From a virus: a DNA stretch of 20,166 bases. This document shows, piece by piece, positions 1 through 19,751 of this stretch. Under the pieces are notes generated by a model. That model did not search any database and was not told where the DNA came from. It saw only the letters and a list, made by a program, of their open reading frames with translations. The first letter of the stretch is position 1, and each line of letters begins with the position of its first letter. The stretch is from the IMG/VR virus record IMGVR_UViG_3300021142_001074, positions 1 through 20,166 of that record. The stretch is one strand, 5' to 3'. The position numbers and the translations under genes were made by a program.

Positions 1-58
1 CTAAAAGTCCTACTAGCATAGCTACAGTCTTTTTGTATTTTTTTAAAAATTCAATCAT
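1..58 (-). CDS. Partial small protein with hydrophobic N-terminus (cut by left edge)
   Basis: An ATG at 58-56 opens a frame that runs leftward to the window edge without a stop. The visible 19 residues are MIEFLKKYKKTVAMLVGLL: a short Lys-rich start followed by the beginning of a hydrophobic stretch, suggesting a small membrane-anchored protein. The start overlaps the stop of the upstream gene in an ATGA arrangement (ATG 58-56, TGA 57-55), the same junction used by the next three genes, which argues that it is real. Function unknown. Confidence 0.6.
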   Translation of the reverse strand, partial: MIEFLKKYKKTVAMLVGLL

Positions 59-642
59 TGTTCAAATCCTTGTTTAATTAATCTTTTTTCTTCACATGAG
101 TTGCAAACGGATCTCATCCATCCGCCGTCATTTTGCACTTCGCTAGGGTTGCCACATGACTCGCAAGTAACACCACTTAGACTTTCTGCTAGGCTGACCA
201 TACCGCGGATGTAGTCATCTCCACCTTGATAGTAAAAACGTAGTGTACCAAACTTCTCTTTAACTTGATCCAACGTTACTTGCGGAACTTCTTCAGGAAC
301 TGGCTGTAAGGGTTGTGTCATATATTCTTTAGCACGTTCTTTGACATAGTCTGCACTCAATCCTTTGTCCCCGTATTCAGCCGCCATCAAATCTGCAAAC
401 AATTCAGCATTACCTGACTGTCCTGCTTCACGGATTTTGTTGAATTTAATTATAACTTCACGCTGACGGTTACGCCAATCGATATGATTTTGAATATTGC
501 CCATAAGCTGATTCAAAATATTAAACCATCCATCACCGCAATCAAAGCCCCAGCACATTGCGGTCTCAGTCATAGGCTTGTCACGGTTTACCATCATCTT
601 CGGGTAAACCTTACATAGGTATTCGTCTAGTTCTTGTCTCAT
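55..642 (-). CDS. Phage hypothetical protein with C-terminal zinc ribbon
   Basis: A 195-residue protein of unknown function. Seen directly: an N-terminal part with an aromatic Cys-Gly-Asp-Gly-Trp-Phe stretch near residue 35, a charged helical middle, the motif KEKFGTLRFYY at about 128-138, and a C-terminal CxxC-x16-CxxC arrangement (C160, C163, C180, C183) that probably binds one zinc ion. Proteins with the KEKFGxLRFY plus zinc-ribbon layout are common small cytoplasmic proteins in tailed phages; that is recall, and no role is known to me. It overlaps both neighbours by four bases (ATGA), so it is likely co-translated in the leftward operon. Confidence 0.85.
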   Translation of the reverse strand: MRQELDEYLCKVYPKMMVNRDKPMTETAMCWGFDCGDGWFNILNQLMGNIQNHIDWRNRQREVIIKFNKIREAGQSGNAELFADLMAAEYGDKGLSADYVKERAKEYMTQPLQPVPEEVPQVTLDQVKEKFGTLRFYYQGGDDYIRGMVSLAESLSGVTCESCGNPSEVQNDGGWMRSVCNSCEEKRLIKQGFEQ

Positions 643-893
643 TTTATATCATCCGATGTTGATGGAAAATGACTAATAATCAAATCCAGTGCTTCAATAG
701 TACGCATGTTGATTACTATATCCTCAGGATGCAACCAATAGCCATCTGGGTTAGCTTCTGTCTTTGGATTTTTCTTCCATTGCTTGATTTCTTTCTTAAG
801 ATACGCACGATAGTCTTTTAAATTAAGACTAGTAATACGATCCGCAGTTTCGCCATCAATCCACTGATAAGGTTTATGTTTAGCTTTACTCAT
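639..893 (-). CDS. Small hypothetical phage protein
   Basis: An 84-residue, Lys- and Trp-containing soluble protein that I do not recognise. It has a basic N-terminus, a helical Lys-rich centre (KDYRAYLKKEIKQWKK, about 27-42) and an acidic C-terminus. No signal peptide, membrane segment or metal motif is visible. It overlaps the downstream 195-residue gene by ATGA at 639-642 and the upstream gene by four bases at 890-893, which supports both start and stop and places it in the same leftward transcription unit. Confidence 0.8.
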   Translation of the reverse strand: MSKAKHKPYQWIDGETADRITSLNLKDYRAYLKKEIKQWKKNPKTEANPDGYWLHPEDIVINMRTIEALDLIISHFPSTSDDIK

Positions 894-1087
894 AGTTCTG
901 CCTGTGCTTTAGTTAAGGGTGTTTCTAAATCAAATGTATCTTCTTCGGGCAAATGTGCTACAGTATTCATTTCTTTCAACTTGCGTAGCATAAACAATCT
1001 GAATGAATCTTCAGTCAAGTCCATAACATCTACAGTTGCCCAGCGACTGTCACTAGTCTTAGCTCTTACAAATACTCCGCTTTTCAT
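890..1087 (-). CDS. Small hypothetical phage protein
   Basis: A 65-residue protein with no recognised family. The N-terminal half looks like a small beta-rich fold (MKSGVFVRAKTSDSRWATVD) and the C-terminal half is acidic and helical. Its ATG (1087-1085) overlaps the stop of the upstream 226-residue gene (TGA 1086-1084), and its own stop overlaps the next start. The ATGA chain is the best evidence that it is translated. A longer frame on the opposite strand over 876-1163 has no supporting context and is treated as a shadow. Confidence 0.75.
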   Translation of the reverse strand: MKSGVFVRAKTSDSRWATVDVMDLTEDSFRLFMLRKLKEMNTVAHLPEEDTFDLETPLTKAQAEL

Positions 1088-1764
1088 TGTACTGCCTTTA
1101 CAAAGTTTAATCTTGTTTCGTCATTACCGTGTTTCCAATGTTTGCCCTGAGCTTTTACTTTAGCTTTGACAATTACACAAGGACCACGAATTAATTCTTT
1201 TTGGCTCATCCAGCTGGCCATTTTATTGTTTATTATAGCACACACATTCCAGCCGTCAAAGTTCTTTGACTTGATTACTTCAAGTATTTCACAATCTAAG
1301 TCAATCAGTCTATCACCCTCACTACCCAGGAATCCGTCTTCAACTGCTTTAGAAGCTTTCTTAACTTCATTGTGCATCTTGTCTTTGGCTTGTACGCTAG
1401 GCAAACAAGCTATCCAACCAAATTCATTTTCTTTAATAGTATCACTGCCCAACAAACTATTAACTTTGGTTAGGAACTCGTTCTCACCTTCGATGGCCAC
1501 AAACACTAGACGCTTGTAATACTTTTGTATTTCCTCTGCACGAGCAACATCTTCAGGTTCAATTTTAAGTATCTTAGTGTCGGGTATGACCATCTTGCTG
1601 TCTAACGTATAAAGCATTAGAGTTTTATTAGCCTGTTTAGTATACATGAATGCACCATCGTTGGCATAAACAGCCTCAGGTACTTTAAGGTACTCACCGT
1701 TAATTCTTTGTGCGGCACAAGCCAATTCTAATACTTGTTTGGTTGGGAATACTTTTGGCTCCAT
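1084..1764 (-). CDS. Hypothetical phage protein, 226 aa
   Basis: A soluble protein of unknown function. Residues 1-120 contain alternating beta and helix stretches. The last 60 residues (DGWNVCAIINNKMASWMSQ to the C-terminus) look like a compact beta-strand domain ending in a Lys/His-rich segment, faintly OB-fold-like. That resemblance is only an impression and no binding function is claimed. A 34-base gap upstream (1765-1798) separates it from the zincin-like gene; it contains AT-rich sequence and a weak GAG just ahead of the ATG, with no convincing promoter. It overlaps the next gene by ATGA. Confidence 0.8.
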   Translation of the reverse strand: MEPKVFPTKQVLELACAAQRINGEYLKVPEAVYANDGAFMYTKQANKTLMLYTLDSKMVIPDTKILKIEPEDVARAEEIQKYYKRLVFVAIEGENEFLTKVNSLLGSDTIKENEFGWIACLPSVQAKDKMHNEVKKASKAVEDGFLGSEGDRLIDLDCEILEVIKSKNFDGWNVCAIINNKMASWMSQKELIRGPCVIVKAKVKAQGKHWKHGNDETRLNFVKAVQ

Positions 1765-1798
1765 GTCAACTCGCTCTAAAAGTTAATATACAAGTATT

Positions 1799-2461
1799 TT
1801 ACATGAAAATGTATCGTTTGTCAACCGTTTCTAAATGTTTAAGTATCTTTTTGGACATACGTTTGACTATAGTATTAAGTCCAAAATAACTAATGTATGC
1901 ACGTAGGACTGGGCTAGAATAAACGGGTCCTGTTCTCATTTTGGACATAATTGTAATTCTGCCCAAATTGCGTCGAGCTCGTTGTACGTCCATTGCTCGA
2001 AGTAGTTCGATAGTAATACTTAATGCGTAAGCATCTATCTCATCGTTATCGGACAAATATTCTTCATATGGAGAGTGTGGCGGAGATGGATAGTCTCTAA
2101 AGTCTCTACGCATACTTTGATATTGGTGACGGAACTCGTGTGCTACTGCATCGTAAATTTCTATGAGAAAATTAGTTATTTGAAATTCGCCAAATGATTC
2201 AGTGCCTATTAAATTATGATGCACCACAACTTCCATTGGTGTTTCTCCGTGAGCATCATTTTCACTGTCATAGTAAGCCATGACATAAAATTTATCTATG
2301 TCTAAATCTTTTTCTCTTTTGGTTTTTATTGATATGTCAAAATTGTGACGTTTAAATGATCTGCGTGTTTGCAGTATGATTTTTTTAAATGATGTAGGCT
2401 TTTCGCACTTTTCTCGAACTTCCTTACAGACATTATTAATACGTTCGAGAATTATGTTCAT
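1799..2461 (-). CDS. Zincin-like metallopeptidase-fold protein (HEFRH), cytoplasmic
   Basis: A 220-residue protein with the HEXXH signature HEFRH at 108-112, preceded by a helix (IEIYDAVA) and followed by an acidic DNDEIDAYA segment whose E141 is a good third zinc ligand. That order (HExxH then a downstream Glu in a helix with Asp-Ala) is typical of gluzincin-type peptidases, so zinc binding and peptide hydrolysis are plausible inferences. There is no signal peptide or membrane segment, so it should act in the cytoplasm. The C-terminus is very basic. It lies three bases downstream of infA in the leftward operon. Substrate unknown. Confidence 0.75.
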   Translation of the reverse strand: MNIILERINNVCKEVREKCEKPTSFKKIILQTRRSFKRHNFDISIKTKREKDLDIDKFYVMAYYDSENDAHGETPMEVVVHHNLIGTESFGEFQITNFLIEIYDAVAHEFRHQYQSMRRDFRDYPSPPHSPYEEYLSDNDEIDAYALSITIELLRAMDVQRARRNLGRITIMSKMRTGPVYSSPVLRAYISYFGLNTIVKRMSKKILKHLETVDKRYIFM

Positions 2462-2464
2462 ATG

Positions 2465-2683
2465 TTACAACCTATAAGTTACTCTACCTTTGGTTAGATC
2501 ATAAGGACTGACTTCTAACCTAACACTATCACCTAGGATAATGCGTATCTTGTTTTGTTTCAATTTACCACCCATATAACATAGTAGCAAGTTAGGCATA
2601 TTTTCAACCTTAACTCTAAACATGTTACCCGGTAATACTTCGTCTACTGTGCCTGTTAATTCTAGTATATCGTCTTTAGCCAT
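2465..2683 (-). CDS. infA: Translation initiation factor IF-1 (phage-encoded)
   Basis: A 72-residue protein that aligns by eye along its whole length with bacterial IF-1: MAKDDILELTGTVDEVLPG at the start, then MFRVKVEN, a GGKLKQNKIRIILGD stretch, and the ending SPYDLTKGRVTYRL. In bacteria IF-1 is an OB-fold protein that occupies the 30S A site during initiation. The start at 2683 is chosen because it gives exactly the family N-terminus (MAK-D/E-D); an in-frame extension upstream (11 residues) lies inside the neighbouring gene and lacks family similarity. The start overlaps the end of the AbrB-like gene by 8 bases. All core IF-1 blocks are intact, so it is probably functional in tuning translation of phage mRNAs. 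Confidence 0.93.
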   Translation of the reverse strand: MAKDDILELTGTVDEVLPGNMFRVKVENMPNLLLCYMGGKLKQNKIRIILGDSVRLEVSPYDLTKGRVTYRL

Positions 2684-2846
2684 TTTTTGCTTTCGATATG
2701 GACCAGGTGCCGTCACCGTTATCTGTCCATTCGAGTGTATCTCCTTCTTTCCATCCTTGTAAGTCTAACAGTTCTTGTGGCAATGGCAGTACTACGTCTC
2801 CGCTACCGTCATCTGCTTCTTCAACTGTTACTGTCCATTTTGTCAT
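2676..2846 (-). CDS. AbrB-like small phage protein, 56 aa
   Basis: A short gene with ATG at 2846-2844 and TAA at 2678-2676. The protein starts MTKWTVTVEE, contains DVVLPLPQELLDLQGWKEGD and ends GDGTWSISKAKNG. The pattern of a strand, LPxPxELL, GWxxGDxLxW and a final GTWxLxK strand is that of the swapped-hairpin AbrB/MazE-type fold, common as small stand-alone proteins in phages, where the role is usually unknown. It might bind DNA or simply be a structural accessory. It overlaps infA by 8 bases. Upstream, a TGTAAATA box lies five bases before the ATG and a possible Shine-Dalgarno sequence (AAGG) is further away than normal. Confidence 0.8.
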   Translation of the reverse strand: MTKWTVTVEEADDGSGDVVLPLPQELLDLQGWKEGDTLEWTDNGDGTWSISKAKNG

Positions 2847-2851
2847 GCTAG

Positions 2852-2859
2852 TATTTACA
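2852..2859 (-). promoter_or_regulatory. T4-late-type box TGTAAATA ahead of the AbrB-like gene
   Basis: In the 20-base gap 2847-2866 the minus strand reads TGTAAATA followed by five bases and the ATG at 2846. It differs at one position from the T4 late promoter box TATAAATA. If used like a T4 late promoter, transcription would start at about the A of the ATG, giving a leaderless message for the AbrB-like gene and infA. Confidence 0.4.
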
Positions 2860-2866
2860 CCTTTAA

Positions 2867-3262
2867 TTAATCATCTTCCCAAGGAACAGGAAACCAGCCC
2901 AAACGGTTAAAGTCGGCTAGTACTTCACCAGTAATAACACCTTCTGAAACATATCCGTTTTTGGTAAAGTAATCGTCATCCTCTTTACCGTCAAAACTCA
3001 AACCGCCTCTAATGCCAGAACAGTACCAATCCATGTAGTCTCCGCCCTTGCCCTGCCAATCGGCAACTAACCCGCCAGCACTACGCCAACTACAACTCCA
3101 AAGGTCCTTGTTGGGGTCTTGTCTTAGTGCAGGAAAAGTTTCTCTGGGGCACCAACGCATATTACAAAATGCCGCGTAGACATTTTGAGCATAGTCATCA
3201 CGAGTCCTAATTTTATTTAGGATCTCAGCATCCTGCAAAATGTCTTGTTCTAAATCTCGCAT
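2867..3262 (-). CDS. Conserved phage hypothetical protein, Trp/Cys-rich
   Basis: A 131-residue protein starting MRDLEQDILQDAEILNKI. I take the ATG at 3262 rather than the longer frame from 3316 because the 18 extra residues would overlap the end of the upstream gene by more than 50 bases, and the MRDLE start follows the upstream stop at once. The body has the pattern YAxNxYAAFCNMRW, a LWSCSWRSAGG segment, a WQGKGGDYMDWYCSG segment and a final RLGWFPVP. Small proteins of this layout occur repeatedly in tailed phages (recall); their role is unknown. No signal peptide; the cysteines do not form an obvious metal site. Confidence 0.8.
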   Translation of the reverse strand: MRDLEQDILQDAEILNKIRTRDDYAQNVYAAFCNMRWCPRETFPALRQDPNKDLWSCSWRSAGGLVADWQGKGGDYMDWYCSGIRGGLSFDGKEDDDYFTKNGYVSEGVITGEVLADFNRLGWFPVPWEDD

Positions 3263-3263
3263 A

Positions 3264-3599
3264 TTAATAACTGTGCCAGCTTCCTTGAAAGCAATGACGC
3301 ATTTCATGTCCAACAACTGCTAGGTTAGATGTAGTACCTGTAATAATTGTACAAATAGTAGTATCGCCTACTTGATCATGAAATGAGCAAGCATACATAC
3401 TTGTGTCACCAAATCCGCCTAATCCTCTACGATTACTTTCGGCATTACAGGCTTTGTCAACATCATCTGCTGTGCGCCAAGTGATAGTAGATTTATTAGC
3501 TATCCTTTTGGTTGCATCAAATGATTTAAATGGCTCATCGTGATACTCCGCATGAACAACAGACGTAACTAACAGTAACATAAAAAATATCTTCTTCAT
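3264..3599 (-). CDS. Secreted small HEXXH metalloprotein
   Basis: A 111-residue protein with a clear signal peptide: two lysines, a hydrophobic core (IFFMLLLVTSVV) and a likely cleavage after HA at residue 17. The mature part has four cysteines (51, 71, 83, 103) that could pair as disulfides in the periplasm and HEMRH at 98-102, followed by H109 near the C-terminus as a possible third zinc ligand. This suggests a very small exported zinc peptidase-like protein; activity is inferred only. The start is supported by a good Shine-Dalgarno sequence (GAGG at 3605-3608, five bases before the ATG). It is the first protein gene behind the tRNA-like element in the leftward operon. Confidence 0.78.
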   Translation of the reverse strand: MKKIFFMLLLVTSVVHAEYHDEPFKSFDATKRIANKSTITWRTADDVDKACNAESNRRGLGGFGDTSMYACSFHDQVGDTTICTIITGTTSNLAVVGHEMRHCFQGSWHSY

Positions 3600-3604
3600 C
3601 TTTG

Positions 3605-3608
3605 CCTC
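3605..3608 (-). promoter_or_regulatory. Shine-Dalgarno of the secreted HEXXH gene
   Basis: The minus strand reads AGAGGCAAAGATG; GAGG sits five bases before the ATG at 3599. It fixes the start and contrasts with four other gap-adjacent starts in the window, which instead have an RTAAATA box in this position. Confidence 0.6.
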
Positions 3609-3628
3609 TTTTTGCCTAAGTTAATAAA

Positions 3629-3740
3629 TGGTGTGGACGGGAAGATTCGAACTTCCAAAGGCAGTCTAAGACCAAGCCCCGTTCCCTCCGTTCGGCTTTC
3701 GCTTACTAGGAGGAGGTTTACCAGTTACACTCACGTCCAC
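3629..3740 (-). tRNA. tRNA-like RNA gene, abnormally long core (112 nt), isotype not assignable
   Basis: Read on the minus strand, the 5' end GTGGACG (3740-3734) pairs perfectly over 7 bp with CGTCCAC (3639-3633). This is followed by a discriminator A and an encoded CCA (3631-3629). Just inside lies a perfect T-arm: stem GGAAG, loop TTCGAAT, stem CTTCC. A GG-containing D-loop-like stretch (AACTGGTAAA) follows the 5' acceptor strand. The core between is about 35 nt too long for a normal tRNA and 12-20 nt too long for a class II tRNA. I found no standard 5-bp/7-nt anticodon arm; the best stem is CCTCC with GGAGG closing a 19-nt loop. The predicted start of transcription falls on its first base. 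It may be an insertion-bearing or decayed tRNA, or a tRNA-mimic RNA. Confidence 0.55.
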
Positions 3741-3746
3741 GTAACT

Positions 3747-3775
3747 ATTGTAACACCGTGTGTAAATAATGTCAA
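3747..3775 (-). promoter_or_regulatory. Strong sigma70-type promoter for the tRNA-like gene and leftward operon
   Basis: On the minus strand, TTGACA (3775-3770, perfect -35) and TACAAT (3752-3747, five of six -10 bases) are separated by exactly 17 bases. Counting seven bases past the -10 places the transcription start on base 3740, the first base of the tRNA-like acceptor stem. The -35 lies inside the first codons of the rightward radical SAM gene, so the two divergent units share this sequence. It probably also supplies the downstream protein genes, since no terminator is visible between the RNA and the gene at 3599. Confidence 0.75.
3761..3768 (+). promoter_or_regulatory. T4-late-type box TGTAAATA ahead of the first radical SAM block
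   Basis: TGTAAATA on the plus strand ends directly before ATG 3769 and six bases before a second in-frame ATG at 3775. No Shine-Dalgarno sequence is present. If it works as a T4-type late promoter, the message would begin close to the second ATG and be leaderless. It is one of four similar boxes in the window, all in gene-to-gene gaps. Confidence 0.4.
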
Positions 3776-4734
3776 TGAACTTTAACACTATACCATTCCA
3801 AAATGTTGTTTCGTTTGGACAACAAACAATGCTAGATCGTCCTTTATTTAACGTAAGTTGGATATTGGGACGCTTTTGTAACTATAACTGTAGCTACTGC
3901 TGGCCTTATGCTCGTAGTGACAAAATGGACTACCAGCCATTTGAAGTGTACATTCGAGCAATAGACGAAATTAAACGGCAAGCTCGCCAAAACGGATTTA
4001 CCCAATTCCACTGGAGTTTCAGCGGAGGTGAGCCAACTGCTTACAAACAACTGCCCGAACTAATAAAATATTTAGACGAAACAGAAAGTCCGTACCAAAG
4101 CATCCACATGACAACTAATTTGAGTCCTGGATCTAAATGGTGGAACAATTGGTGTAACATTACGTTGCCCTTACAACGTAAAAGCATTACAGCCAGCTTT
4201 CATGCAGAGTTTGCCAAGGAGCAAGAGTTTGGCGACAAGTGCTTACAGTTAATGTACGAAAGTGTACACGTAACAGTTAACCAAGTTATGGTTCCAGAAA
4301 AGTTTTTTGAAACCCTAGAACGCTGTGAACGACTACGTGCTCGTGGAATCAATGTAACGCTCAAGCCGCAAAGTAATGATAGTGCTACAGCTATAGTAGA
4401 TGGCTATACTCCTGAAATGATTGCTATAATGCAAAATGACTTTGAGCAACAAGAGGGATATCAAATTAGACTAACAGATGGCGACAAAGATTATTATGTA
4501 GATCAAGCAGAAAGATTTAACGCATTGGGGTTTAACTCATTTACCAATTGGACTTGTAATGCAGGATATCAGAGTGTTATAATAAGAGGTAATGAAGTCA
4601 AACGTGCATATAGCTGTCACGAAGCACCGTTGGGGACGATAGAAAAATTTACTTTGTTTTCCGCCCCACAAAAATGTATAACTGCTAGGTGCGTTAGTTC
4701 GGCTGATAGCAAAATACCAAAATGTATAAAATAG
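3769..4734 (+). CDS. Radical SAM enzyme with C-terminal Cys-rich (twitch/SPASM-like) domain, type A
   Basis: A 321-residue member of the radical SAM superfamily. The [4Fe-4S] site is CNYNCSYC (C37, C41, C44), preceded by a strand and followed by the SAM-binding SGGEPT (85-90) and a TTN strand (115-117). The C-terminus has WTCNAG (C263), then C283, C303, C308 and C319, the order expected for one auxiliary iron-sulfur cluster. Such enzymes cleave SAM reductively to a 5'-deoxyadenosyl radical and abstract a hydrogen from a substrate, often a peptide, sugar or nucleotide; the substrate here is unknown. It shares the CNYxCxYCWP signature with the gene at 8777. The start could be the ATG at 3775 (third residue). 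The end overlaps the next gene by 13 bases. Confidence 0.9.
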   Translation: MSMNFNTIPFQNVVSFGQQTMLDRPLFNVSWILGRFCNYNCSYCWPYARSDKMDYQPFEVYIRAIDEIKRQARQNGFTQFHWSFSGGEPTAYKQLPELIKYLDETESPYQSIHMTTNLSPGSKWWNNWCNITLPLQRKSITASFHAEFAKEQEFGDKCLQLMYESVHVTVNQVMVPEKFFETLERCERLRARGINVTLKPQSNDSATAIVDGYTPEMIAIMQNDFEQQEGYQIRLTDGDKDYYVDQAERFNALGFNSFTNWTCNAGYQSVIIRGNEVKRAYSCHEAPLGTIEKFTLFSAPQKCITARCVSSADSKIPKCIK

Positions 4735-5702
4735 AAGATATAAGAGATATTCATTTAGAACTAACTAGCAAGTGTCAAGCACGTTGTCCTATGTGCCCAA
4801 GGCGCCTCAACGGCGGTCCTATGAATCCTTTGTTCGATCCAACTGAGATAGATTTAGTAACATTCAAGACTTGGTTCAAACCAGAATTTATACAACAACT
4901 TAATAAATTGTTTATGTGCGGTAATTTAGGCGATCCTATTATTGCAGAAGATTGTTTAGAAATATTTCAGTACCTTAGAGAAACAAATCCTAACATGCAA
5001 CTGACCATGCATACCAATGGCAGTGCTAGAAATGTTGATTGGTGGAAGGCACTAGCCGAGTGCGGAGTTAAAGTTACATTTGGTATCGATGGTTTAGAAG
5101 ATACACATAAGCTATATCGTGTAAGCACAGATTGGCATAAGATTATAAAAAACGCTTGGGCATTTATACAAGCAGGTGGTGAAGCTGAATGGCACATGTT
5201 AGTGTTCAAACATAACGAACATCAAATTGAAGAGTGTCGTGCTATAGCAACAGAAATGAAATTTAAAAATTTTCAAGTTAAACATACTTCAAGATTTGTA
5301 GAAGATAAACTTCATGTGTTAGATGATGCGGGAAGAACTACGCACATACTGTATCCTACAGAAACTAGCAAAGCCATAGTTAATAAAGTTAAAGATAATA
5401 TAAATTCTACTAAGATTAACTGTAAGGCTGTGCAACATAAACAAATGTACATTGCCGCAGACGGTACTGTAAACCCTTGCTGTTGGTTAGACTTTAGTTG
5501 GCAATTACCTAATCAATCAAGTCGAGTAGACTATATGGATGCTGTTGGGATATTTCCTAACTTGCACAAGGACTCGTTAGAAAATATATTCTCTTCAGGA
5601 CACTTTAAACAAATTGAAGATACTTGGGCACACAAGCCTTTGTTAGAATGTTCACGCCAATGCGGCAAGTTTGATAAACTAGGAGAACAGTTTGTTAATT
5701 GA
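4722..5702 (+). CDS. Radical SAM/SPASM enzyme, type B (CPMCPR family), paralogue 1
   Basis: A 326-residue protein. The radical SAM cluster motif is CQARCPMC (C18, C22, C25), followed by PRRLNGG. Where most relatives have GGEP this one has CGNLGDP (66-72), then HTNGS (97-101) and GIDGLEDTHKLYR. The SPASM-like tail carries C234, the pair C253-C254 within an AADGTVNPCCW turn, and C310/C314. It is clearly paralogous to the gene at 6284: same Cys spacing at both ends, same CGNxGDP, same FKHNEHQ at about 162-168. The family includes peptide-modifying and cofactor-building enzymes, so a large substrate is possible. It overlaps the preceding gene by 13 bases and the following TTG-start gene by 11. 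Confidence 0.9.
   Translation: MYKIEDIRDIHLELTSKCQARCPMCPRRLNGGPMNPLFDPTEIDLVTFKTWFKPEFIQQLNKLFMCGNLGDPIIAEDCLEIFQYLRETNPNMQLTMHTNGSARNVDWWKALAECGVKVTFGIDGLEDTHKLYRVSTDWHKIIKNAWAFIQAGGEAEWHMLVFKHNEHQIEECRAIATEMKFKNFQVKHTSRFVEDKLHVLDDAGRTTHILYPTETSKAIVNKVKDNINSTKINCKAVQHKQMYIAADGTVNPCCWLDFSWQLPNQSSRVDYMDAVGIFPNLHKDSLENIFSSGHFKQIEDTWAHKPLLECSRQCGKFDKLGEQFVN
5681..5685 (+). promoter_or_regulatory. Shine-Dalgarno AGGAG supporting a TTG start
   Basis: AGGAG lies six bases before TTG 5692, inside the end of the upstream radical SAM gene. It is one of the strongest Shine-Dalgarno sequences in the window and justifies the TTG start of the methyltransferase-like gene, whose first in-frame ATG is eleven codons later. 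Confidence 0.6.
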
Positions 5703-6291
5703 TACTGAACATCTGCACTATTGGATGCAGGCCATCCGCAATAGTGAAAATCCTATGCGAACTATGGATGCCTTTTGGAGTGGACAACTAAAAAGCAAAG
5801 AGTGGTTAATTACATCATTAGCTATGCATTGCCCTGATGGTCCATACTCAATTGACATACACGGCGGCTGGGTTGGTGTACTAGCCAGTATGTTATTTCA
5901 AAGTTCTATTCCTGTTAAGCATATTCGAAGTATTGATATTGATCATACCTGCGAAGACATTGCAACTATGATGAACAAAGGTGAAGAGATTGCAGGTAAG
6001 TTTCGTGCTGTAACATCAGACATGTGTACTATTCGCAGTGACGCTGACGTTATTATCAATACCAGTTGTGAACATATTACACAAGATCAATACGACTTAT
6101 GGCTAAGTGGACATCCGCAAAATAGTTTAATTGTTCTACAAAGTAACAACTATAACATACCAGAACATATTAGAATTGCTAATAGCTTAGAAGAATTCAA
6201 AGAACAAAGCCAACTTAAGGTTTTGTATGCTGACGAATTGCAATTACCGTTGTATAATCGTTATATGATAATAGGTTCAAAATATGCTTAA
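5692..6291 (+). CDS. Class I SAM-dependent methyltransferase-like protein
   Basis: A 199-residue protein starting at TTG 5692, supported by AGGAG six bases upstream. It has a Rossmann-like core: SIDIHGGWVGVLASML (53-68) in the place of motif I, the strand IRSIDIDH (78-85) with acidic residues expected to hold the SAM ribose, and VIINTSCEHI (120-129) as motif IV-like segment. No target-recognition domain is seen, so the methyl acceptor is unknown. The glycine-rich loop is GGWxG rather than the classical GxGxG, so SAM binding is likely but not certain. It sits between two type B radical SAM paralogues and overlaps both neighbours (11 and 8 bases), which suggests action on the same product. Confidence 0.72.
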   Translation: MLIDTEHLHYWMQAIRNSENPMRTMDAFWSGQLKSKEWLITSLAMHCPDGPYSIDIHGGWVGVLASMLFQSSIPVKHIRSIDIDHTCEDIATMMNKGEEIAGKFRAVTSDMCTIRSDADVIINTSCEHITQDQYDLWLSGHPQNSLIVLQSNNYNIPEHIRIANSLEEFKEQSQLKVLYADELQLPLYNRYMIIGSKYA

Positions 6292-7369
6292 ATTTAATGA
6301 ACTTAAAAGTATACAAATAGAGATTAGCAATAGGTGTCAAGCTTCATGCCCTATGTGCCCACGTAATATACACGGTGGTATAGAAAATCCATTATTACCT
6401 ATTAATGAATGGTCGTTAGATGATTTTAAAAAAATATTTACTACAGATATCTTAGCACAACTTGAACTAATTGATTTTTGCGGTAACTTCGGTGACCCAT
6501 TAATGAACAGCGATCTTGTTAGTATGTGCGAGTATGTTAAAGTTAATGCGCCAAACATTAAAGTTGTTATACACACTAATGGAAGTTTAAAATCTACAGC
6601 ATGGTGGAAAAGTTTATATCACGCATTGCCCGAGAATCATATTGTAGCATTTGCATTAGACGGACTAGAAGATACACACAGTCTTTATCGAATTGGTACT
6701 AACTATAATTTAATTATAAAGAACGCTAAAACATTTATTGACGAAGGTGGATCGGCTGAATGGGTATTCATTAGATTCAAACATAACGAACATCAAGTTA
6801 GTCAAGTAGAATTTTTATCTAACAGTTTAGGGTTTAAAAAATTTACAGTAAAAAATAGCAAACGTTTTGCAAAACCCTTTCCTGTAGTTGATAGCACTGG
6901 AAAATTTTTATACAATATTGAGCAAACATCTGATAGCGTTATTAAGTTTGTAAGTAAATCAGATGTAGCAGGACACCAAAATTGGCCTGATGCAGATAAG
7001 ATTAACTGTATGGCGATTGCAAATAAAGATTTGTATATAGATGCACATTATCAACTAAGCCCTTGCTGTATGATTGGAGCATTCCTTTATACAAACTATG
7101 ATGTAGATTTATATAAATCATATAACTTGTTTCAAAAAGATTCTATAGTTGAAGAAGGTGCAAAGGTTCAAGAACAAGTCTTAGGGTTTCCAAGATTTAA
7201 TGTATTAGAATTAGGATTGCAAAACATTGTCAACACTGAACAATGGCAAACAATGTGGCAACAAAAATGGAAAGACAAATCTAGTTCAACTTGTATAATA
7301 ATGTGTGGCCCTCATAGTCCTTACATAAGTATAGATGATCAAAAAATTAAGATGATAAACAATGAATAA
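6284..7369 (+). CDS. Radical SAM/SPASM enzyme, type B, paralogue 2
   Basis: A 361-residue radical SAM enzyme with cluster motif CQASCPMC (C18, C22, C25), CGNFGDP at 66-72 in place of GGEP, HTNGS at 97-101, ALDGLEDTHSLYR, and a SPASM-like tail (C242, C261, C262, C337, C341). Cluster positions match the gene at 4722 residue for residue over the first 100 amino acids, so the two arose by duplication. It is longer mainly through an insertion of about 30 residues between the middle and last tail cysteines. The start overlaps the methyltransferase-like gene by 8 bases, and the end overlaps the next gene by 8. Substrate unknown. Confidence 0.9.
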   Translation: MLKFNELKSIQIEISNRCQASCPMCPRNIHGGIENPLLPINEWSLDDFKKIFTTDILAQLELIDFCGNFGDPLMNSDLVSMCEYVKVNAPNIKVVIHTNGSLKSTAWWKSLYHALPENHIVAFALDGLEDTHSLYRIGTNYNLIIKNAKTFIDEGGSAEWVFIRFKHNEHQVSQVEFLSNSLGFKKFTVKNSKRFAKPFPVVDSTGKFLYNIEQTSDSVIKFVSKSDVAGHQNWPDADKINCMAIANKDLYIDAHYQLSPCCMIGAFLYTNYDVDLYKSYNLFQKDSIVEEGAKVQEQVLGFPRFNVLELGLQNIVNTEQWQTMWQQKWKDKSSSTCIIMCGPHSPYISIDDQKIKMINNE

Positions 7370-8780
7370 AGTATTTTGGATACAACCAGAAGAGACACAG
7401 TTAGGTAATTGGCAAAGACAAATTACTGAAGTGTCTGGCAGTCCTAGTTTTTGTGTATTACCTTGGATACATCTGGCAACTCGCCCAAACGGCGATATGC
7501 GTATATGCTGTGTTGCAAATGCATCAGGTGCTGACACTGGCGACTATACTGTTGGCTTAGTTAAAATGGAAGACGGTAAGCCAGCTAACTTTTCACATGA
7601 CTTGCCTACACAAGCATTTAACAATGACTATATGAAGTCAGTGCGTAAAACTATGCTAGCAGGAGAAGTACCTGCCAGTTGTGTTAAGTGTTATGAAGAA
7701 GAAGCAGAAGGTATCGCTAGTAAACGTATTTGGGAAACTGGTACTTGGTACTTAAATGAAAAGATTGATATTAAAGAACTAATTGCTGAAACAGAATTAG
7801 ACGGATCAGTTCCTTACAAATTACAATACTTAGACTTACGATTAGGGCATACTTGTAATTTAAAATGTATCATGTGTAGTCCGCATGATTCAAGTATGTG
7901 GGTGCCAGAACATAAAAAAGTGTTTCCTATATTCACTAGCCCATTAATCAAAAAACAAATGAGCTGGGAAGCAACTGATTTTAATAACAAGTGGCATGAG
8001 AACCCAGAGTTCTGGAAAGAAGTTTACGATCAAATTCCTAATATCAAACAATTATACTTTGCAGGTGGTGAGCCATTACTAATCAAAGAGCATAAAGTAT
8101 TCCTGCTAGAAATTATCAAGCGTGGGTATGCTGGACAGATTAGTCTACGCTACAACACTAATGGCATATTAGTCAATGATGAAATTATTGAAATATGGAG
8201 CCAGTTCCGTAAAGTTAAAGTAGGTGTTAGCCTAGACGGTATTGGTCCACGTGGCGAGTACATACGTTATCCATTAGATTGGAAAGTTGTAGAGGAGAAT
8301 CTAATTAAACTAGACAATGCTCCAGACAACATACAAACTAACATTGCTATGGCTGTACAAATCTTAAACATCAAACACGTTCCAGATTTTATTAAATGGA
8401 AAGTGCGTATGAACTTTAAGAAAGTTAACTTTGATAAAAATGCCGCTGGACAAATTATGGGTGGTGGATTAGTAGGTGTACACTTACTATGGATACCTAC
8501 ATGGCTAAGTCTACGTGTACTGCCTAAAGAAGATAAACAAGAAGTACGTCAATTATTTGCAGAACTGCAAGAATGGTTATGGAAAAATTACACACAGGAC
8601 AAGGAGTTCTGGGAAGTTAATCCGTACGGATGGAAACGTTGGGAAGGCATCTTAGATTGGATGGACAAAGAGGACCACACTAATTTATTACCAGACTTTA
8701 AGGATTACATTACTACAATGGATACCCAACGCAGTACAGATTTTAAAACAACATTTCCAGAGTTGGCACACTTACTATGA
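7362..8780 (+). CDS. Radical SAM enzyme with N-terminal Cys-rich domain, type C
   Basis: A 472-residue protein with inverted architecture. The auxiliary-cluster-like domain comes first: C31 in FCVLPWIHLATRPNGDMRICC (C49-C50), then C107 and C110 in the turn VKCYEEEA. The radical SAM core follows: CNLKCIMC (C165, C169, C172), AGGEPL (234-239), NTNG (265-268), SLDGIG (290-295). The C-terminus has the pattern DTQRxxDF...FPEL, which is shared with its paralogue at 11477. Proteins with this N-terminal twitch-like layout are known from marine phages as unassigned radical SAM proteins (recall). The end overlaps the next gene by ATGA (8777-8780), so the two are probably co-translated. Confidence 0.9.
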   Translation: MNKVFWIQPEETQLGNWQRQITEVSGSPSFCVLPWIHLATRPNGDMRICCVANASGADTGDYTVGLVKMEDGKPANFSHDLPTQAFNNDYMKSVRKTMLAGEVPASCVKCYEEEAEGIASKRIWETGTWYLNEKIDIKELIAETELDGSVPYKLQYLDLRLGHTCNLKCIMCSPHDSSMWVPEHKKVFPIFTSPLIKKQMSWEATDFNNKWHENPEFWKEVYDQIPNIKQLYFAGGEPLLIKEHKVFLLEIIKRGYAGQISLRYNTNGILVNDEIIEIWSQFRKVKVGVSLDGIGPRGEYIRYPLDWKVVEENLIKLDNAPDNIQTNIAMAVQILNIKHVPDFIKWKVRMNFKKVNFDKNAAGQIMGGGLVGVHLLWIPTWLSLRVLPKEDKQEVRQLFAELQEWLWKNYTQDKEFWEVNPYGWKRWEGILDWMDKEDHTNLLPDFKDYITTMDTQRSTDFKTTFPELAHLL

Positions 8781-9814
8781 TACCTATTAAGATTGTATCA
8801 ACGCAGAAACCCAACATCTTAGCAATAAGATGGAATCCTAATAATGTTTGTAATTACAAATGTGAATACTGCTGGCCCGATAACAATGCGGGCGACTATC
8901 TTTCTCCAAAGAATTTAGATTTAGTAGTTAAAAACTTTAATCACTTTATAGCAACTTACAAACAAAAACTAGGCAAGACTAAAATACATCTTAGCCTAGC
9001 AGGTGGAGAGCCTACACTATGGAGAGACCTTGCGCTATTCATAGAAGAAATTAAAAAAGAAAACGACATCTATTTAAGTTTAATCAGCAATGGGTCACGC
9101 ACACTACGCTGGTGGAAAGAATACGGACACTTAATTGATAACGCTCATTTGTCATACCACATCTCCCAAGCTGATCCGGATCACATGATTGCTGTAGCAG
9201 ATACATTATTTGAATACAACAAAAAGGTAACTGTCAAAGTTCTAATGGATCGCAAGCATTGGCAAGAAGGATTAGACGTTATTGACTATATGAAAAAGAA
9301 CAGCAAGTACAATTGGTTTATTATAACTTGTGAAGTTATCGAACCTGAAGTTGCTAAGATTGGTAACATCAAAGTTGTCAATGCTGATGATATACAAATA
9401 ACACCTGAGCAAAAACGTTTCTTAAAAAACCCTTTAAAGCGTATACCTAATCTTCTTTGGATTTGGAAAAACAGAAAATTAATATTTGAAGGGCAAATGC
9501 GTCTATACGAAAGTGTAGCAACACTTGATAACGGCAAAACTGTACGAGCAAAGTCTAACACTTACATTAACAATAACTGGACTAACTTTGAAGGTTGGAG
9601 TTGCGATATAGGACTAGACAATGTTTATATCAGTTGGACAGGAGAAATACAAGGATCATGCCAACAAACTATCTACGGGTTAGACTACTCGTTTAACATA
9701 CTAGATGAAAACTTTGTAGAAAAATTTAATCCTGAATTTAAATCTAGTATCTGTTCTATTAAGAATTGCTTATGTAGTTGCGAAACGCACCAATCAAAGT
9801 TTAAACTTAGTTAA
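8777..9814 (+). CDS. Radical SAM enzyme with C-terminal Cys-rich domain, type A
   Basis: A 345-residue radical SAM protein. Motifs: CNYKCEYC (C25, C29, C32) followed by WPD, AGGEPT (75-80), and a SNGS strand. The C-terminal auxiliary domain has WSCDIG (C277), C296, and a run C326, C331, C333, C335; the extra Cys compared with its relatives may alter the cluster. It is closest in layout to the genes at 3769 (CNYxCxYCWP) and 9794. The start is the ATGA overlap with the type C gene; the last 21 bases overlap the tail of the convergent gene at 9794. It ends KFKLS, the last residues being encoded within a palindrome. Confidence 0.9.
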   Translation: MIPIKIVSTQKPNILAIRWNPNNVCNYKCEYCWPDNNAGDYLSPKNLDLVVKNFNHFIATYKQKLGKTKIHLSLAGGEPTLWRDLALFIEEIKKENDIYLSLISNGSRTLRWWKEYGHLIDNAHLSYHISQADPDHMIAVADTLFEYNKKVTVKVLMDRKHWQEGLDVIDYMKKNSKYNWFIITCEVIEPEVAKIGNIKVVNADDIQITPEQKRFLKNPLKRIPNLLWIWKNRKLIFEGQMRLYESVATLDNGKTVRAKSNTYINNNWTNFEGWSCDIGLDNVYISWTGEIQGSCQQTIYGLDYSFNILDENFVEKFNPEFKSSICSIKNCLCSCETHQSKFKLS

Positions 9815-10690
9815 CGGTATATCAGCGGCGCAGGTACAGAAATTACGGTCACAAGTTACGGGTTCGCTAGGAGCAACGAAGCTTCCTTCATATATGTTGC
9901 CAAGACTACCACCGACTCTACAAGTCGCTCTGTGTACATCTCCGTCCCAATTTATCATTAGGCTTTCTATACCTGCGTTGCATGACCAGTCTTTGTATTT
10001 GTTCATGTGCAGTTTAATTATGTCGTTGGCATGATACATTTGTTTAGGATCATCATCAATAACACAATTTGCTTCTACTGTTGCTTCATACTCTTTGACC
10101 CAAGCTAAGTCTTCTGCATTATATCGCATGTCATCAAACAAGTCGTGATCACCTTGTGTCCAACGAACTCTACGAACGGCATGAGGTACATTACTTGCTC
10201 TTAACGCTTCTGCAATATATCTAGTACGTTTCATGTGATCCTGATGTGCCATCACGTGTACTAATATCTTTCCACTGAACAGTTCTTTAGTATTAACAAT
10301 AGTATCTAACACACGTCTAACGTCGTACTCCATATGTACACTAAACACAAATTGATCCACGGGCAAACTAGAATAGAATTCATGTGGTAGTGTTCCGTTA
10401 GTTGTTACACTAATCCATGTGATGCCAACATGCTTACAGTATGTAACAAGCTCTTTAAACTTAGGATGCACAGTTGGCTCGCCACCTGTGAAACTCAAAC
10501 GTATAGGTTTGCCTAGTGTAACAAGTTTGTCAACACATGCCTTTAATTTTTCTATGTCAGTGTGCGGGCTAGAATTATCGTGTATGCTACTAGGGCAGTA
10601 ACTACAATCAAAGTTACAACGCTTGCCTAAGTTCCATTCAATCTTAATAGTACCTGTATGTGTCGGGTATCGACTGGCTACTTTAAACAT
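9794..10690 (-). CDS. Radical SAM enzyme with C-terminal Cys-rich domain, type A
   Basis: A 298-residue radical SAM enzyme. CNFDCSYC (C25, C29, C32) is the cluster site, FTGGEPT (67-73) the SAM-binding motif, TTNGT the next strand. The tail has WSCNAG (C237), a NWDGDVHRATC strand pair (C257), LGNI, and C280, C285, C287. The phrase CNAG...G.v.rA.C.....LGNI is shared with the gene at 3769, making it a second close relative. It is last in the leftward block: it overlaps the upstream unknown gene by 13 bases and the convergent plus-strand gene by 21. Likely iron-sulfur enzyme of unknown substrate. Confidence 0.9.
   Translation of the reverse strand: MFKVASRYPTHTGTIKIEWNLGKRCNFDCSYCPSSIHDNSSPHTDIEKLKACVDKLVTLGKPIRLSFTGGEPTVHPKFKELVTYCKHVGITWISVTTNGTLPHEFYSSLPVDQFVFSVHMEYDVRRVLDTIVNTKELFSGKILVHVMAHQDHMKRTRYIAEALRASNVPHAVRRVRWTQGDHDLFDDMRYNAEDLAWVKEYEATVEANCVIDDDPKQMYHANDIIKLHMNKYKDWSCNAGIESLMINWDGDVHRATCRVGGSLGNIYEGSFVAPSEPVTCDRNFCTCAADIPLTKFKL
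9797..9808. repeat. 12-bp perfect palindrome AAGTTTAAACTT inside a convergent gene overlap
   Basis: The sequence reads the same on both strands and lies where two type A radical SAM genes meet tail to tail. In frame on each strand it encodes Lys-Phe-Lys-Leu, so both proteins end in KFKL (one with an added Ser). With no loop bases and no T-run it does not look like a terminator. Confidence 0.8.
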
Positions 10691-11484
10691 GTTACTTTTT
10701 TAACCTCGTTAAATTTTAATAGTGTAGATTTATCTATTGGCGTAACTAAATCTGCAACTGGAATCATTCCTATATTTAAATTTTTAAATTTAAAGTTTCT
10801 TTTTAATAACCACAACTTAATTATAAAGGAACGAGCCGCATACGCTAACCAATTAGTGCTTGGGCCAAACTTAACCATAAAGTCTGCGCTGTAATGAGTT
10901 TGTGGACGTACTGCTTCTGATAGTGTATCTTTATCTTTAAACACATCTAACACTGTCTTGCCTACTTGACAATAGTTTATATACACAGTACCTTGTTTCC
11001 ATTTGTAAGTAAACTGTCGCATGTCACTTTCTGATAATGCTAATCTAAGATTATCTTTAAATGTTACAACTACTGTAGGATGTTTTTGTCCTGTTCTAAT
11101 CGACGACTCAAGTTGATGTATTAGTATGTTAAATTTTTCTACAGCAATTTTTACATCTATGGGTGCAGTATTAAACCAAACAGTTCCAATAGATACTTCT
11201 CCTCGCAAGTCTTCGAAGAACCTGTGCAGATAGTTTAGTTCTTGTTGTGTAGATGATGCTGTAACACGTTTATCTATAATAGGCTGATAAGCATTTATGA
11301 TATCAATTTGTTGATTAAGCTGATTGACAAAATCATGCGGACCCCAGTTGCTAAATCTATTAGTTTCGTACAGGGCATAATCTTTAGACAATTCGTTAAA
11401 CCACTTGTTGGCAATATTGGTATTTCTTAACTTAAAAGTCAATACCAAATCCTCAACACCGTTAGTTAATGTTAGTTCAAACAT
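10678..11484 (-). CDS. Unknown protein between two radical SAM genes
   Basis: A 268-residue protein that I do not recognise. It has an N-terminal beta-type segment (MFELTLTNGVEDLVLTFKL), a long helical middle containing YLHRFFEDLRGE and a second helix around FNILIHQLE, then a mixed C-terminal half rich in Lys and aromatic residues. It has a single Cys in the middle and one near the end, so it carries no iron-sulfur or zinc motif, and there is no signal peptide or membrane segment. It overlaps the radical SAM gene upstream by 8 bases and the one downstream by 13. This intimate placement suggests a partner or substrate-binding subunit, or even the protein substrate; that is inference from position only. 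Confidence 0.8.
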   Translation of the reverse strand: MFELTLTNGVEDLVLTFKLRNTNIANKWFNELSKDYALYETNRFSNWGPHDFVNQLNQQIDIINAYQPIIDKRVTASSTQQELNYLHRFFEDLRGEVSIGTVWFNTAPIDVKIAVEKFNILIHQLESSIRTGQKHPTVVVTFKDNLRLALSESDMRQFTYKWKQGTVYINYCQVGKTVLDVFKDKDTLSEAVRPQTHYSADFMVKFGPSTNWLAYAARSFIIKLWLLKRNFKFKNLNIGMIPVADLVTPIDKSTLLKFNEVKKVTCLK

Positions 11485-12736
11485 ACAATTTAAACTCCGG
11501 TGTCACATCTGTGAAACTTTGATTACGAGTAGTGTCTAGTGCTTGATTAAATGCTACACAGTCTTGCCACTTGTCGCTTTGATCACGAGCCATTAGATAG
11601 TTAATGTTATCTTGTATCTGTCCTCGAGTGTATGCTAACAACTGGGGGTGCTGTTTAACCATTTTAAATTCTTCTAATCGTTGTTCAACAGCACGAAGTT
11701 TTGTTATGGCTAACACTTGTAACTCACGAGGGAGGACCTGTGCGGATAATACTTTAGGGTACTCGACACGATGTGTATGGAACACAATGCCTAAGTCGTC
11801 TAGGAAGTATTCAATCATCTTATCAAGCACAAGTACATTACTAACTTGTACAGTAACCGCACCAACTATACGACTGATGTTTGGAATAGTTTGTATTTGT
11901 TTAATATTATTAACTAACTCAGTCCACGACGCATTGCCACGAACATATTCATAGCTATCACCAATACCATCTATGCTTACATTAACTGCTACTGATTTAA
12001 ACTTGGGCCAGTATTGCCATACAGTACGATTGCTCTTACCTAGCATACTTAGATTAGTAGCATACTTAATTTCAATCTGGTGTCCGTAAGGTGCAAGCAT
12101 ATCTAAAATACGATAGTGCTGTGGATCCATCAATGGTTCACCACCGGCAAACTCAACACGGCGGAAGTGCGGAAGCAACTTTTCTAAACTAGCCCACCAT
12201 TCCGGACTGTCCTGGAACTTGTCCAAATGTGGCTTGTTTTCCAAATCATGTTCTTCAACAATAGCATACATGATGTTGTTTTCTTGTTTGTAATACTTTT
12301 TTACTACACTCCAATCATTCCAACTAGTTGAGTCCATTGGGTGACACATACGGCACTTAAGGTTACACAAATTGTTTAATTTTAGTTCCATTGTAGGAAT
12401 CTCAAACGGCATGCTGTAATCGTCTTTTAAAGCGTCTAACGCATTAGGGTATAGTTTGATACGTGCTTCGGGTATTGCACCGCTTATATGACGTTTTCGC
12501 AAGGATTCGACGCCCTGATCTTCTAGGCTAAAGCAGGGCTCGCACTCCGGTGGACGTATGTTAGTAAGTACTGACTTACGTATACGTTTCATAGTGTCAT
12601 TATTCCAAATTTCTTCTAAGGAATTCTGTTGTATAAAACCAACAGGATGGCTACGACAGCAGGCACAAATGGCTCCGTCTTCTCTAGTTGCTAGCCCTGT
12701 AAAAGGGTGCATACAAAATGTTTCACTTTGGTTCAT
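11477..12736 (-). CDS. Radical SAM enzyme with N-terminal Cys-rich domain, type C
   Basis: A 419-residue paralogue of the gene at 7362. The N-terminal auxiliary domain has C8 (FCMHPFTGLATREDG), C24/C26/C27 and C65/C68 (PPECEPC). The radical SAM core has CNLKCRMC (C124, C128, C131), AGGEPL (197-202), a TNLS strand and SIDGIG. The C-terminus TTRNQSFTDVTPEF matches the DxxR...F...PEF ending of its paralogue. The first domain is shorter by about 40 residues than in the paralogue. It overlaps the SGNH hydrolase upstream by 14 bases and the unknown gene downstream by 8. Probable iron-sulfur enzyme; substrate unknown. Confidence 0.9.
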   Translation of the reverse strand: MNQSETFCMHPFTGLATREDGAICACCRSHPVGFIQQNSLEEIWNNDTMKRIRKSVLTNIRPPECEPCFSLEDQGVESLRKRHISGAIPEARIKLYPNALDALKDDYSMPFEIPTMELKLNNLCNLKCRMCHPMDSTSWNDWSVVKKYYKQENNIMYAIVEEHDLENKPHLDKFQDSPEWWASLEKLLPHFRRVEFAGGEPLMDPQHYRILDMLAPYGHQIEIKYATNLSMLGKSNRTVWQYWPKFKSVAVNVSIDGIGDSYEYVRGNASWTELVNNIKQIQTIPNISRIVGAVTVQVSNVLVLDKMIEYFLDDLGIVFHTHRVEYPKVLSAQVLPRELQVLAITKLRAVEQRLEEFKMVKQHPQLLAYTRGQIQDNINYLMARDQSDKWQDCVAFNQALDTTRNQSFTDVTPEFKLYV

Positions 12737-13352
12737 TTATTATCTTATGTAATCGTTCAGCCGCCTGACGATGTGATATCGGTCCAGGGTGGCTGTTATC
12801 TAATGCCATGTCTAACTTGTGTTGTATTATTTCGTTTGGAATAAAATTTTCTAACGGCTGAGTAAAATGAGGCATCACTTCATACCATCCATGATATGCA
12901 CAAAAATGATGTTGCTTTACCCCTTTAATTTTTAAATAGGATTCTGCATGGTGCATATACAACCCCATCCTAACAGCCATGTCGTAATCATTGTGTACAT
13001 CGAAATATTTTTTAATAAACTTTGTATCCTTGTGCCACACACTTAGTCGAAGTGCAGATTCAACACCGAGCATATTTTTACTAAAGATACAATCTCTTAA
13101 ACTGTAAGTCCATCCAACAATTACAGTATCAGTTGGCAATGCATCAAAACTTATAATCTCTCTCAAAATTTGTATGTTGCTAAATCCCGGAGTTGATTTA
13201 TTAACAACTTCAAGCCCTAACATATTGCCTAGCACTTGTGGCCAGGCTAATTTACTAGCAGTAGGTCCGTGCCATCCTTTATCTGGAATCCAACAATCTT
13301 CTAATCCGTGTCCAAATGTAAAACTATCACCGAACGTTATTAATCTAGGCAT
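12723..13352 (-). CDS. SGNH/GDSL-type hydrolase
   Basis: A 209-residue protein with the SGNH signatures in order: block I ITFGDSFTFG (S10 as nucleophile), block II NKSTPGFSN with the oxyanion Gly (G56), a strand VIVGWTYSLRD (77-87) where block III normally has GxND, and block V DNSHPG with D185 and H188. The Asn of block III is replaced, so oxyanion-hole geometry may differ. The fold is used by esterases, lipases and carbohydrate O-acetyl transferases or esterases. No signal peptide, so it probably acts in the cytoplasm on a cell- or phage-made molecule. It overlaps the PLP gene upstream by 8 bases and the radical SAM gene downstream by 14. Confidence 0.85.
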   Translation of the reverse strand: MPRLITFGDSFTFGHGLEDCWIPDKGWHGPTASKLAWPQVLGNMLGLEVVNKSTPGFSNIQILREIISFDALPTDTVIVGWTYSLRDCIFSKNMLGVESALRLSVWHKDTKFIKKYFDVHNDYDMAVRMGLYMHHAESYLKIKGVKQHHFCAYHGWYEVMPHFTQPLENFIPNEIIQHKLDMALDNSHPGPISHRQAAERLHKIINEPK

Positions 13353-14196: not shown

Positions 14197-14200
14197 GTTT

Positions 14201-14208
14201 TATTTACG
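14201..14208 (-). promoter_or_regulatory. T4-late-type box CGTAAATA ahead of the PLP gene
   Basis: On the minus strand CGTAAATA is followed by four bases (AAAC) and ATG 14196. A perfect TATAAT (14216-14211) lies just upstream but lacks any -35-like hexamer at 16-18 bases. Read as a late box, transcription would begin at the start codon. Confidence 0.4.
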
Positions 14209-14222
14209 TCATTATAGTAGCA

Positions 14223-14230: not shown

Positions 14231-14234
14231 TTTC

Positions 14235-18419: not shown

Positions 18420-18420
18420 A

Positions 18421-19748: not shown

Positions 19749-19751
19749 ATT

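Follow-up and report, generated by a model that had tools for sequence, protein, structure and literature searches.

A conserved tRNA-Leu-like RNA without an anticodon arm in uncultured freshwater phages

Why would a phage encode an RNA that has the two ends of a tRNA and no anticodon arm? The tRNA genes of phages are commonly explained in one of two ways, as aids to codon usage or as substitutes for tRNAs that host defences have cut. The question is posed by a 20,166-nucleotide stretch of virus DNA (positions 1 to 20,166 of IMG/VR record IMGVR_UViG_3300021142_001074; hereafter the window), in which the minus strand, read directly from 3740 to 3629, encodes a 112-nt tRNA-like RNA. An original prediction made from the sequence alone had set the same two end positions and named no strand; all of the signals lie on the minus strand. 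Direct reading confirms the perfect acceptor and T arms and the encoded CCA that it described (Table 1). The standard anticodon hairpin that it could not find was not recognized by dedicated software either: ARAGORN, run for tRNA and tmRNA, makes no tRNA call anywhere in the window, Rfam 15 has no match in the window at gathering thresholds, and the Rfam tRNA family RF00005 registers 3740-3632 (minus strand) at relaxed thresholds with 26.2 bits, short of the 29 that its cut-off requires. The alignment of this model with the RNA runs from end to end and leaves the middle unexplained; the acceptor, T arm and encoded CCA of RF00005 are present, while a score above the cut-off and an anticodon arm with a 5-bp stem and 7-nt loop are absent. 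The prediction was to be given up if a covariance model assigned a confident isotype or if the core proved to decay at random in homologues. No isotype was assigned with confidence, the core is kept in the relatives described below, and the claimed feature stands.

Table 1 Features of the RNA locus, in positions of the window.
Feature	Positions	Strand	Details
Whole tRNA-like RNA	3629..3740	-	112 nt; base 1 is the predicted transcription start, 3' end is CCA; 112.7 bits
Acceptor stem, 5' strand	3734..3740	-	Pairs with 3633-3639; GTGGACG/CGTCCAC, 7 bp; 98.9% of cells paired; two-sided changes in 3 of 7 pairs
Acceptor stem, 3' strand	3633..3639	-	Direct reading and alignment
tRNA-Leu-type D arm	3714..3731	-	Bulged U in stem; AAC-TGGTA loop with A14, A15, G18, G19, A20a
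Hairpin 1, where the anticodon arm is expected	3685..3713	-	CCTCC/GGAGG stem, internal loop, GC-GAAA-GC cap; without anticodon; 94.0% of cells paired; two-sided changes in 4 of 5 pairs
Hairpin 2, the long variable arm	3658..3680	-	5-bp stem, two-base 5' bulge TT, 4-bp stem, TTA triloop; 97.3% paired; two-sided changes in 6 of 9 pairs
U48, Levitt partner of A15	3657..3657	-	Single base separating hairpin 2 and T stem
T arm	3640..3656	-	GGAAG-TTCGAAT-CTTCC; 5-bp stem; direct reading and alignment
Discriminator A73 and encoded CCA	3629..3632	-	Direct reading
Sigma-70-type promoter	3747..3775	-	TTGACA-17-TACAAT; 11 of 12 consensus matches; -10 ends 6 nt before RNA base 1
ORF, small exported protein	3264..3599	-	Starts 29 nt after CCA; conserved HExxH and Cys
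Divergent radical SAM ORF	3769..4734	+	Neighbour, not a required part

What the RNA is can be regarded as fairly secure: it is neither a singleton nor a decayed tRNA, and its family is real, conserved and absent from Rfam 15 at its thresholds. With the adjacent radical SAM protein as bait we recovered 80 viral loci, the RNA lying beside the gene in nearly all of them, and a sequence pattern derived from the RNA matched at least 119 stretches. The RNA is present in 191 of the 194 loci fetched and full-length in 184, which yielded 95 distinct full-length sequences with pairwise identities of 59 to 99%; the 88 distinct RNAs with a complete 5' acceptor strand measure 95-121 nt. A family covariance model, built from 53 sequences with the window's own (locus L001) among them, finds a single match of 112.7 bits in the window, and the RNA occurs once in the 20,166-base virus record. 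Nineteen of 20 records searched with this model hold one strong copy each (87-125 bits), other matches reaching at most 41 bits. The carriers are many uncultured freshwater phages. Records bearing the RNA reach 265, 281 and 345 kb, with up to 34 tRNA-model matches per record, and a gp23-type capsid gene was present in 2 of 20 records; the best cultured relatives of one gp23-bearing record are Sinorhizobium phage Phosso (71.7%), Vibrio phage 2.275.O (69.5%), and PA5oct-like and CBB-like jumbo phages. Searches by blastn with three members returned no full-length match to the window's own RNA type in cultured phages, and no description of the RNA family was found in the open-licence PMC literature. 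The exact D-arm pattern had no match in a collection of bacterial and archaeal genome contigs, and on these grounds a prophage or chromosomal origin was rejected.

The fold of the family was examined in 53 aligned members (alignment A1, 53 of the 62 cluster representatives; the nine omitted, among them L049 with its CCG terminus, had ends truncated by the search envelope). RNAalifold and a named structure agree on four elements, the acceptor and T stems and both hairpins. The 29 pairs form in 97.9% of cells, as compared to 86.0% in shuffles; two-sided changes affect 15 of the 29 pairs (173 cells, against 41 in shuffles), and the covariation score of 0.365, against 0.137 in shuffles, was reached by 0 of 500 shuffles. 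When the partners are slid by 1-3 columns, pairing falls to 36-56%. Compensatory change is found in four of the five helices: the acceptor, the T stem and both hairpin stems. The D stem is invariant and for that reason offers no covariation evidence; it rests on analogy with tRNA-Leu, and the conservation of the D arm among loci found with the RNA pattern was partly imposed by that pattern. Single-sequence folding energy of the window RNA is not unusual (z 0.17) and is not significant on either strand. Hairpin 2 has a first stem of five pairs, then a bulge of two bases on the 5' side, a second stem of four pairs and, mostly, a triloop, and is followed by one U and the T stem; the triloop is TTA in 44 of the 95 distinct RNAs, ATT in 14, ATA in 4, CTA in 2 and ATC in 1, with 30 unmatched by the pattern used. 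This hairpin is a stand-in for the class II variable arm. Two internal pairings had been suggested originally: CCTCC/GGAGG is real and conserved, while AAGCC/GGCTT lies outside the conserved fold, its GGC side belonging to hairpin 2.

The covariance model also indicated which ordinary tRNAs the family resembles, the top 22 of its best ordinary phage tRNA matches being 17 tRNA-Leu and 5 tRNA-Tyr, with two near-duplicate records among them. The likeness to class II tRNA-Leu, the phages' own included, extends to nearly identical D loops (GGAATTGGTAGAC / GGAATGGTATAC), the long variable arm, A73, the A15-U48 pair and CCA. The phage RNA differs in being without an anticodon arm, in the bulged base of its D stem, in a longer variable arm with a 5' bulge, and in possessing its own promoter with a predicted start on base 1; it is also present as a single copy, which in the jumbo records G001-G003 lies at a distance of 20-40 kb from the main tRNA cluster. 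For E. coli LeuRS, one account lists A73, the A15-U48 pair, G18G19, A20a and contacts at the D/T loop elbow as determinants, and describes tRNA-Leu variants without anticodon and variable arms that are still charged, the anticodon arm being required for editing and not for charging (PMC9976931). Across the phage family, the D core is intact in 95 of 95 distinct RNAs, and U48 and A73 in all 93 that have a readable 3' end; among RNAs found by the protein bait alone, with no RNA used as bait, the counts are 43/43 and 41/41, respectively. By the sequence determinants A73, A15-U48, G18G19 and A20a, the RNA groups with tRNA-Leu. Of 24 distinct phage tRNA-Leu, 23 have the leucine combination, as do 27 of 205 other phage tRNAs, and so it is not exclusive to leucine tRNAs. 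The arm that has been lost is exactly the one that LeuRS can spare for charging, as would be expected of an RNA selected for charging without decoding; from these sequence features we infer that the RNA is probably chargeable by LeuRS.

Both ends of the RNA carry conserved signals. The stretch from 1 to 20000 of the window holds four promoter sites with 11 of 12 consensus bases, and the RNA promoter is one of them. That its transcript would begin on the first base of the RNA had been anticipated for the window; the same geometry, a 17-nt spacer and a -10 hexamer ending 6 nt before base 1, recurs in 102 of 105 distinct upstream regions. Of these 105, 102 have G as base 1, and 85 of the promoters score 11 or 12 of 12 consensus bases. 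Geometry and initiating G together suggest that the 5' end is probably made by transcription initiation rather than by RNase P. At the opposite end, ACCA closes 91 of the 93 distinct RNAs with a readable 3' end; CCG takes the place of CCA in two distinct RNAs (L049 and L188), and also in L281/L282.

Our preferred reading, to which we assign roughly an even chance, is that the RNA is a mature, trans-acting, leucylatable and non-decoding mimic of tRNA-Leu. Transcription would start at base 1, leaving no 5' leader to remove, and the RNA would be separated from the following mRNA at its CCA end. The features read by LeuRS (A73, A15-U48, G18G19, A20a and the D/T elbow) would have been kept along with the long variable arm, and the anticodon arm given up; host LeuRS would then charge the RNA with leucine. 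The RNA might act in trans as a tRNA mimic, occupying or titrating a binder of charged or CCA-ended tRNA. The titrated target would most likely be a host tRNA-targeting defence enzyme, and less likely a translation factor or LeuRS itself; such a decoy role is speculative.

The position of the RNA relative to the gene behind it permits a different reading, namely a cis-acting 5' leader in which a tRNA-like fold at the 5' end of an mRNA guards it against decay or regulates how its first gene is translated. Compatible with a leader are the predicted start on base 1 and, in one clade, a small hairpin between the CCA and the start codon, and an ORF of at least 40 codons begins within 61 nt after the CCA in 98 of 99 distinct loci (median, 26.5 nt); in the remaining locus, L168, a TTG-started frame is readable. 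Such short distances also occur for ordinary tRNAs in compact phage genomes, two in phage CBB lying 16 and 26 nt from the next ORF. We hold a leader to be unlikely, as the RNA is not tied to any single gene or kind of gene. Four unrelated families make up the downstream genes (79, 11, 7 and 1 loci), and the window's own downstream protein has no Pfam or PHROG match. Homologues of the main downstream protein were examined at 40 loci, where the RNA is present in 27 and absent in 10, L285, L286 and L287 being left out as not assessable, such that 10 of 37 assessable homologues are RNA-less; one of these, L274, retains the promoter type and the linker TTAACACACAGAGG and has no RNA. Seven of the 10 RNA-less loci were searched for a copy elsewhere in the record, each record being a fragment, and no strong match was found (best, 37.7 bits). 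In simple folding free of ligand and protein, the ribosome-binding (Shine-Dalgarno) zone does not appear to be sequestered (unpaired 0.559 versus 0.575, with a drop exceeding 0.3 in 5 of 89). A73 and CCA are conserved, although an mRNA would have no obvious need of them, and in cultured phages similar RNAs lie inside tRNA arrays. We read the RNA as a module, independent of the downstream gene, that appears to share its promoter with whichever gene follows. In L093, L100, L104, L138, L175 and L185, the small hairpin that separates the CCA from the MSNTVEQL gene's start codon bears a conserved ATAAG-type loop. A late-promoter role for the ATAAGTA motif that follows the CCA in one clade was considered and dropped, the motif being absent upstream of the gp23 gene examined; a pairing of the linker AGGCA with hairpin 2 was rejected upon inspection by eye, as it fails in other members.

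On the other side of the RNA, a divergent radical SAM ORF is found in all 41 rSAM-seeded loci and in 36 of the 53 RNA-pattern-seeded loci (loci with at least 500 nt of upstream sequence; among the matches listed). Combined with the leucine determinants, this neighbour could point to a dedicated leucine donor, an RNA charged by LeuRS and kept off the ribosome that would hand its leucine to an aminoacyl-tRNA-dependent enzyme, possibly in connection with the divergent radical SAM genes. We deem this improbable. Among the matches listed, 17 of the 53 RNA-pattern-seeded loci are without a radical SAM neighbour within 1.5 kb, and in 18 of the 20 records used for the covariance search, a search for amino-acid-transfer partners gave 0 of 18 for each of three families, L/F-transferase, LeuRS-type synthetase and peptidyl-tRNA hydrolase, though a host enzyme could serve. 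A tblastn search of 50,697 cultured phage records with the adjacent radical SAM protein gave no match. Positions 3769-16441 of the window hold a cluster of many radical SAM ORFs.

The variation of hairpin 1 bears on whether the RNA could decode, as a tRNA whose anticodon arm contains an insertion or intron. The order of the arms is correct for such a tRNA, and ARAGORN accepts 14 of the 95 distinct RNAs as tRNAs; however, it gives eight conflicting anticodon readings among these 14 and refuses most of the family. Hairpin 1, which ranges from about 12 to 37 nt, keeps its stem and exchanges its distal part, with repeatedly changed caps (CUUG in L006, at about 12 nt; UUCG; GAAA in the window) and elsewhere with long internal loops, and across the family it has neither a conserved 7-nt loop nor a consistent anticodon. 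A decoding tRNA of this kind is very unlikely. The chance of a decayed tRNA pseudogene is negligible: the score under the Rfam tRNA cut-off would agree with it, and pseudo-tRNAs appear in lists for related cultured phages (PMC7760394, PMC3622015; not equated here with the lookalike genes described below), but compensatory change has preserved the acceptor, T and both hairpin stems across 95 distinct sequences down to 59% identity, and the promoter is conserved. Three options had been offered at the start; the tRNA mimic fits, its suggested action on ribosomes, RNases or CCA-dependent enzymes being conjecture, the tRNA with an insertion is disfavoured and the decayed tRNA is rejected.

Cultured phages contain RNAs that resemble the family. 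The covariance model, applied to eight cultured phages, pointed to RNAs of 113 nt in CBB and XbC2; the CBB RNA, used as a blastn query, retrieved 16 phage records. The resulting 112-113-nt 'type II' lookalikes, found in CBB, BF, XbC2, Kaldavass, pEa_SNUABM_49, Kuerle and Fifi287, share a Leu-like D arm, a small-cap hairpin replacing the anticodon arm, a second hairpin with a 5' bulge, the T arm and A73; they differ in their 3' ends, which are CCT, CTT or ACA without an encoded CCA. Several lie inside tRNA arrays, those of the cultured Erwinia phages Kuerle and Fifi287 between tRNA-Gln and tRNA-Ile. Their scores of 42.1 and 38.5 bits compare with up to 45.5 for ordinary-length class II matches, so that the model cannot separate them from tRNA-Leu and we call them similar, not homologous beyond tRNA-Leu. 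Annotation misses or mislabels such RNAs, the cultured examples being entered as tRNA-Val (CBB), tRNA-Arg (Kaldavass), tRNA-Cys (Fifi287) or not at all.

Among known systems, tmRNA has a tRNA-like end without an anticodon. The phage RNA differs from it in possessing a D stem, in lacking a tag frame, in being roughly a third as long and, in the window, in having no G3-U70 pair; no tmRNA was found in the window by ARAGORN or Rfam. Plant-virus 3' tRNA-like structures are viral RNAs that mimic a charged tRNA end. These stand at the 3' end of RNA genomes, whereas the phage RNA comes from a DNA phage and stands at the 5' end of its predicted transcript. The historical precedent is T4 RNA C, described as a small stable phage RNA of unknown function (PMC3014915, PMC9697503, PMC12685909), and T4 RNAs C and D, or species 1 and 2 RNA, are reported as late RNAs (PMC9697503). 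RNA C (139 nt) resembles the family in the T arm and two long hairpins of its predicted fold; it differs in that neither a Leu-type D arm nor an encoded CCA was seen, and it adjoins tRNA genes. With 17.7 bits under the family model, T4 rnaC scores too low to be called similar.

A broader proposal, which we advance tentatively and with considerable doubt, is that of a class of aminoacylated, anticodon-less phage RNAs, made from a strong host-type promoter, that would serve as decoys for tRNA-binding or tRNA-cutting defence enzymes, for instance through the elbow, variable arm or CCA tail, or would tie up LeuRS. If this is true, the same functional class would also take in T4 RNA C and, from cultured jumbo phages, the lookalikes that have no annotation. 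The family may likewise offer a handle on the decades-old question of what T4 RNAs C and D do. A conserved non-decoding phage tRNA fits neither usual reading of phage tRNA genes, as codon-usage helpers or as replacements for cut tRNAs, and makes a clean test case for decoy action. Septu is reported to cut tRNA-Tyr in the variable loop, extra phage tRNA-Tyr rescuing T6, and decoy or supplement action of the phage tRNA-Tyr is suggested by its authors (PMC13096335). Cas12a3 is reported to trim CCA tails, and in the view of its authors viral tRNAs cannot readily circumvent the trimming (PMC12851939). A CCA-ended, non-decoding tRNA could, by analogy, be a fitting countermeasure to tRNA-targeting defence; the suggestion is speculative, and no defence is tied to the RNA here.

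Other unusual tRNA-like genes were seen in the course of the comparisons. Upstream of the lookalike RNA, CBB (L234:496-568) and XbC2 (L235:575-648) carry an annotated tRNA-Pyl (CTA), probably an amber-suppressor-type tRNA. Vibrio phage 2.275.O has two more long tRNA-like stretches (L236:768-879 and 4990-5124); one of the two ends 27 nt before groEL, and one measures 135 nt and has a Leu-like D arm. Jumbo phages hold 92-nt tRNA-Ile(TAT)-type genes at L214:264-355, L213:3553-3644, L216:6948-7039, L211:4510-4601 and L209:11287-11378, the anticodon call being given for L214 and L211 alone among the five; their extra arm is long and class II-like, with CAGATAA or CAGATTA retained in its loop, which is unusual for tRNA-Ile. 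In the tRNA cluster of an RNA-bearing record, L213:4006-4137 encodes a 132-nt RNA with a good T arm, several hairpins and no evident anticodon.
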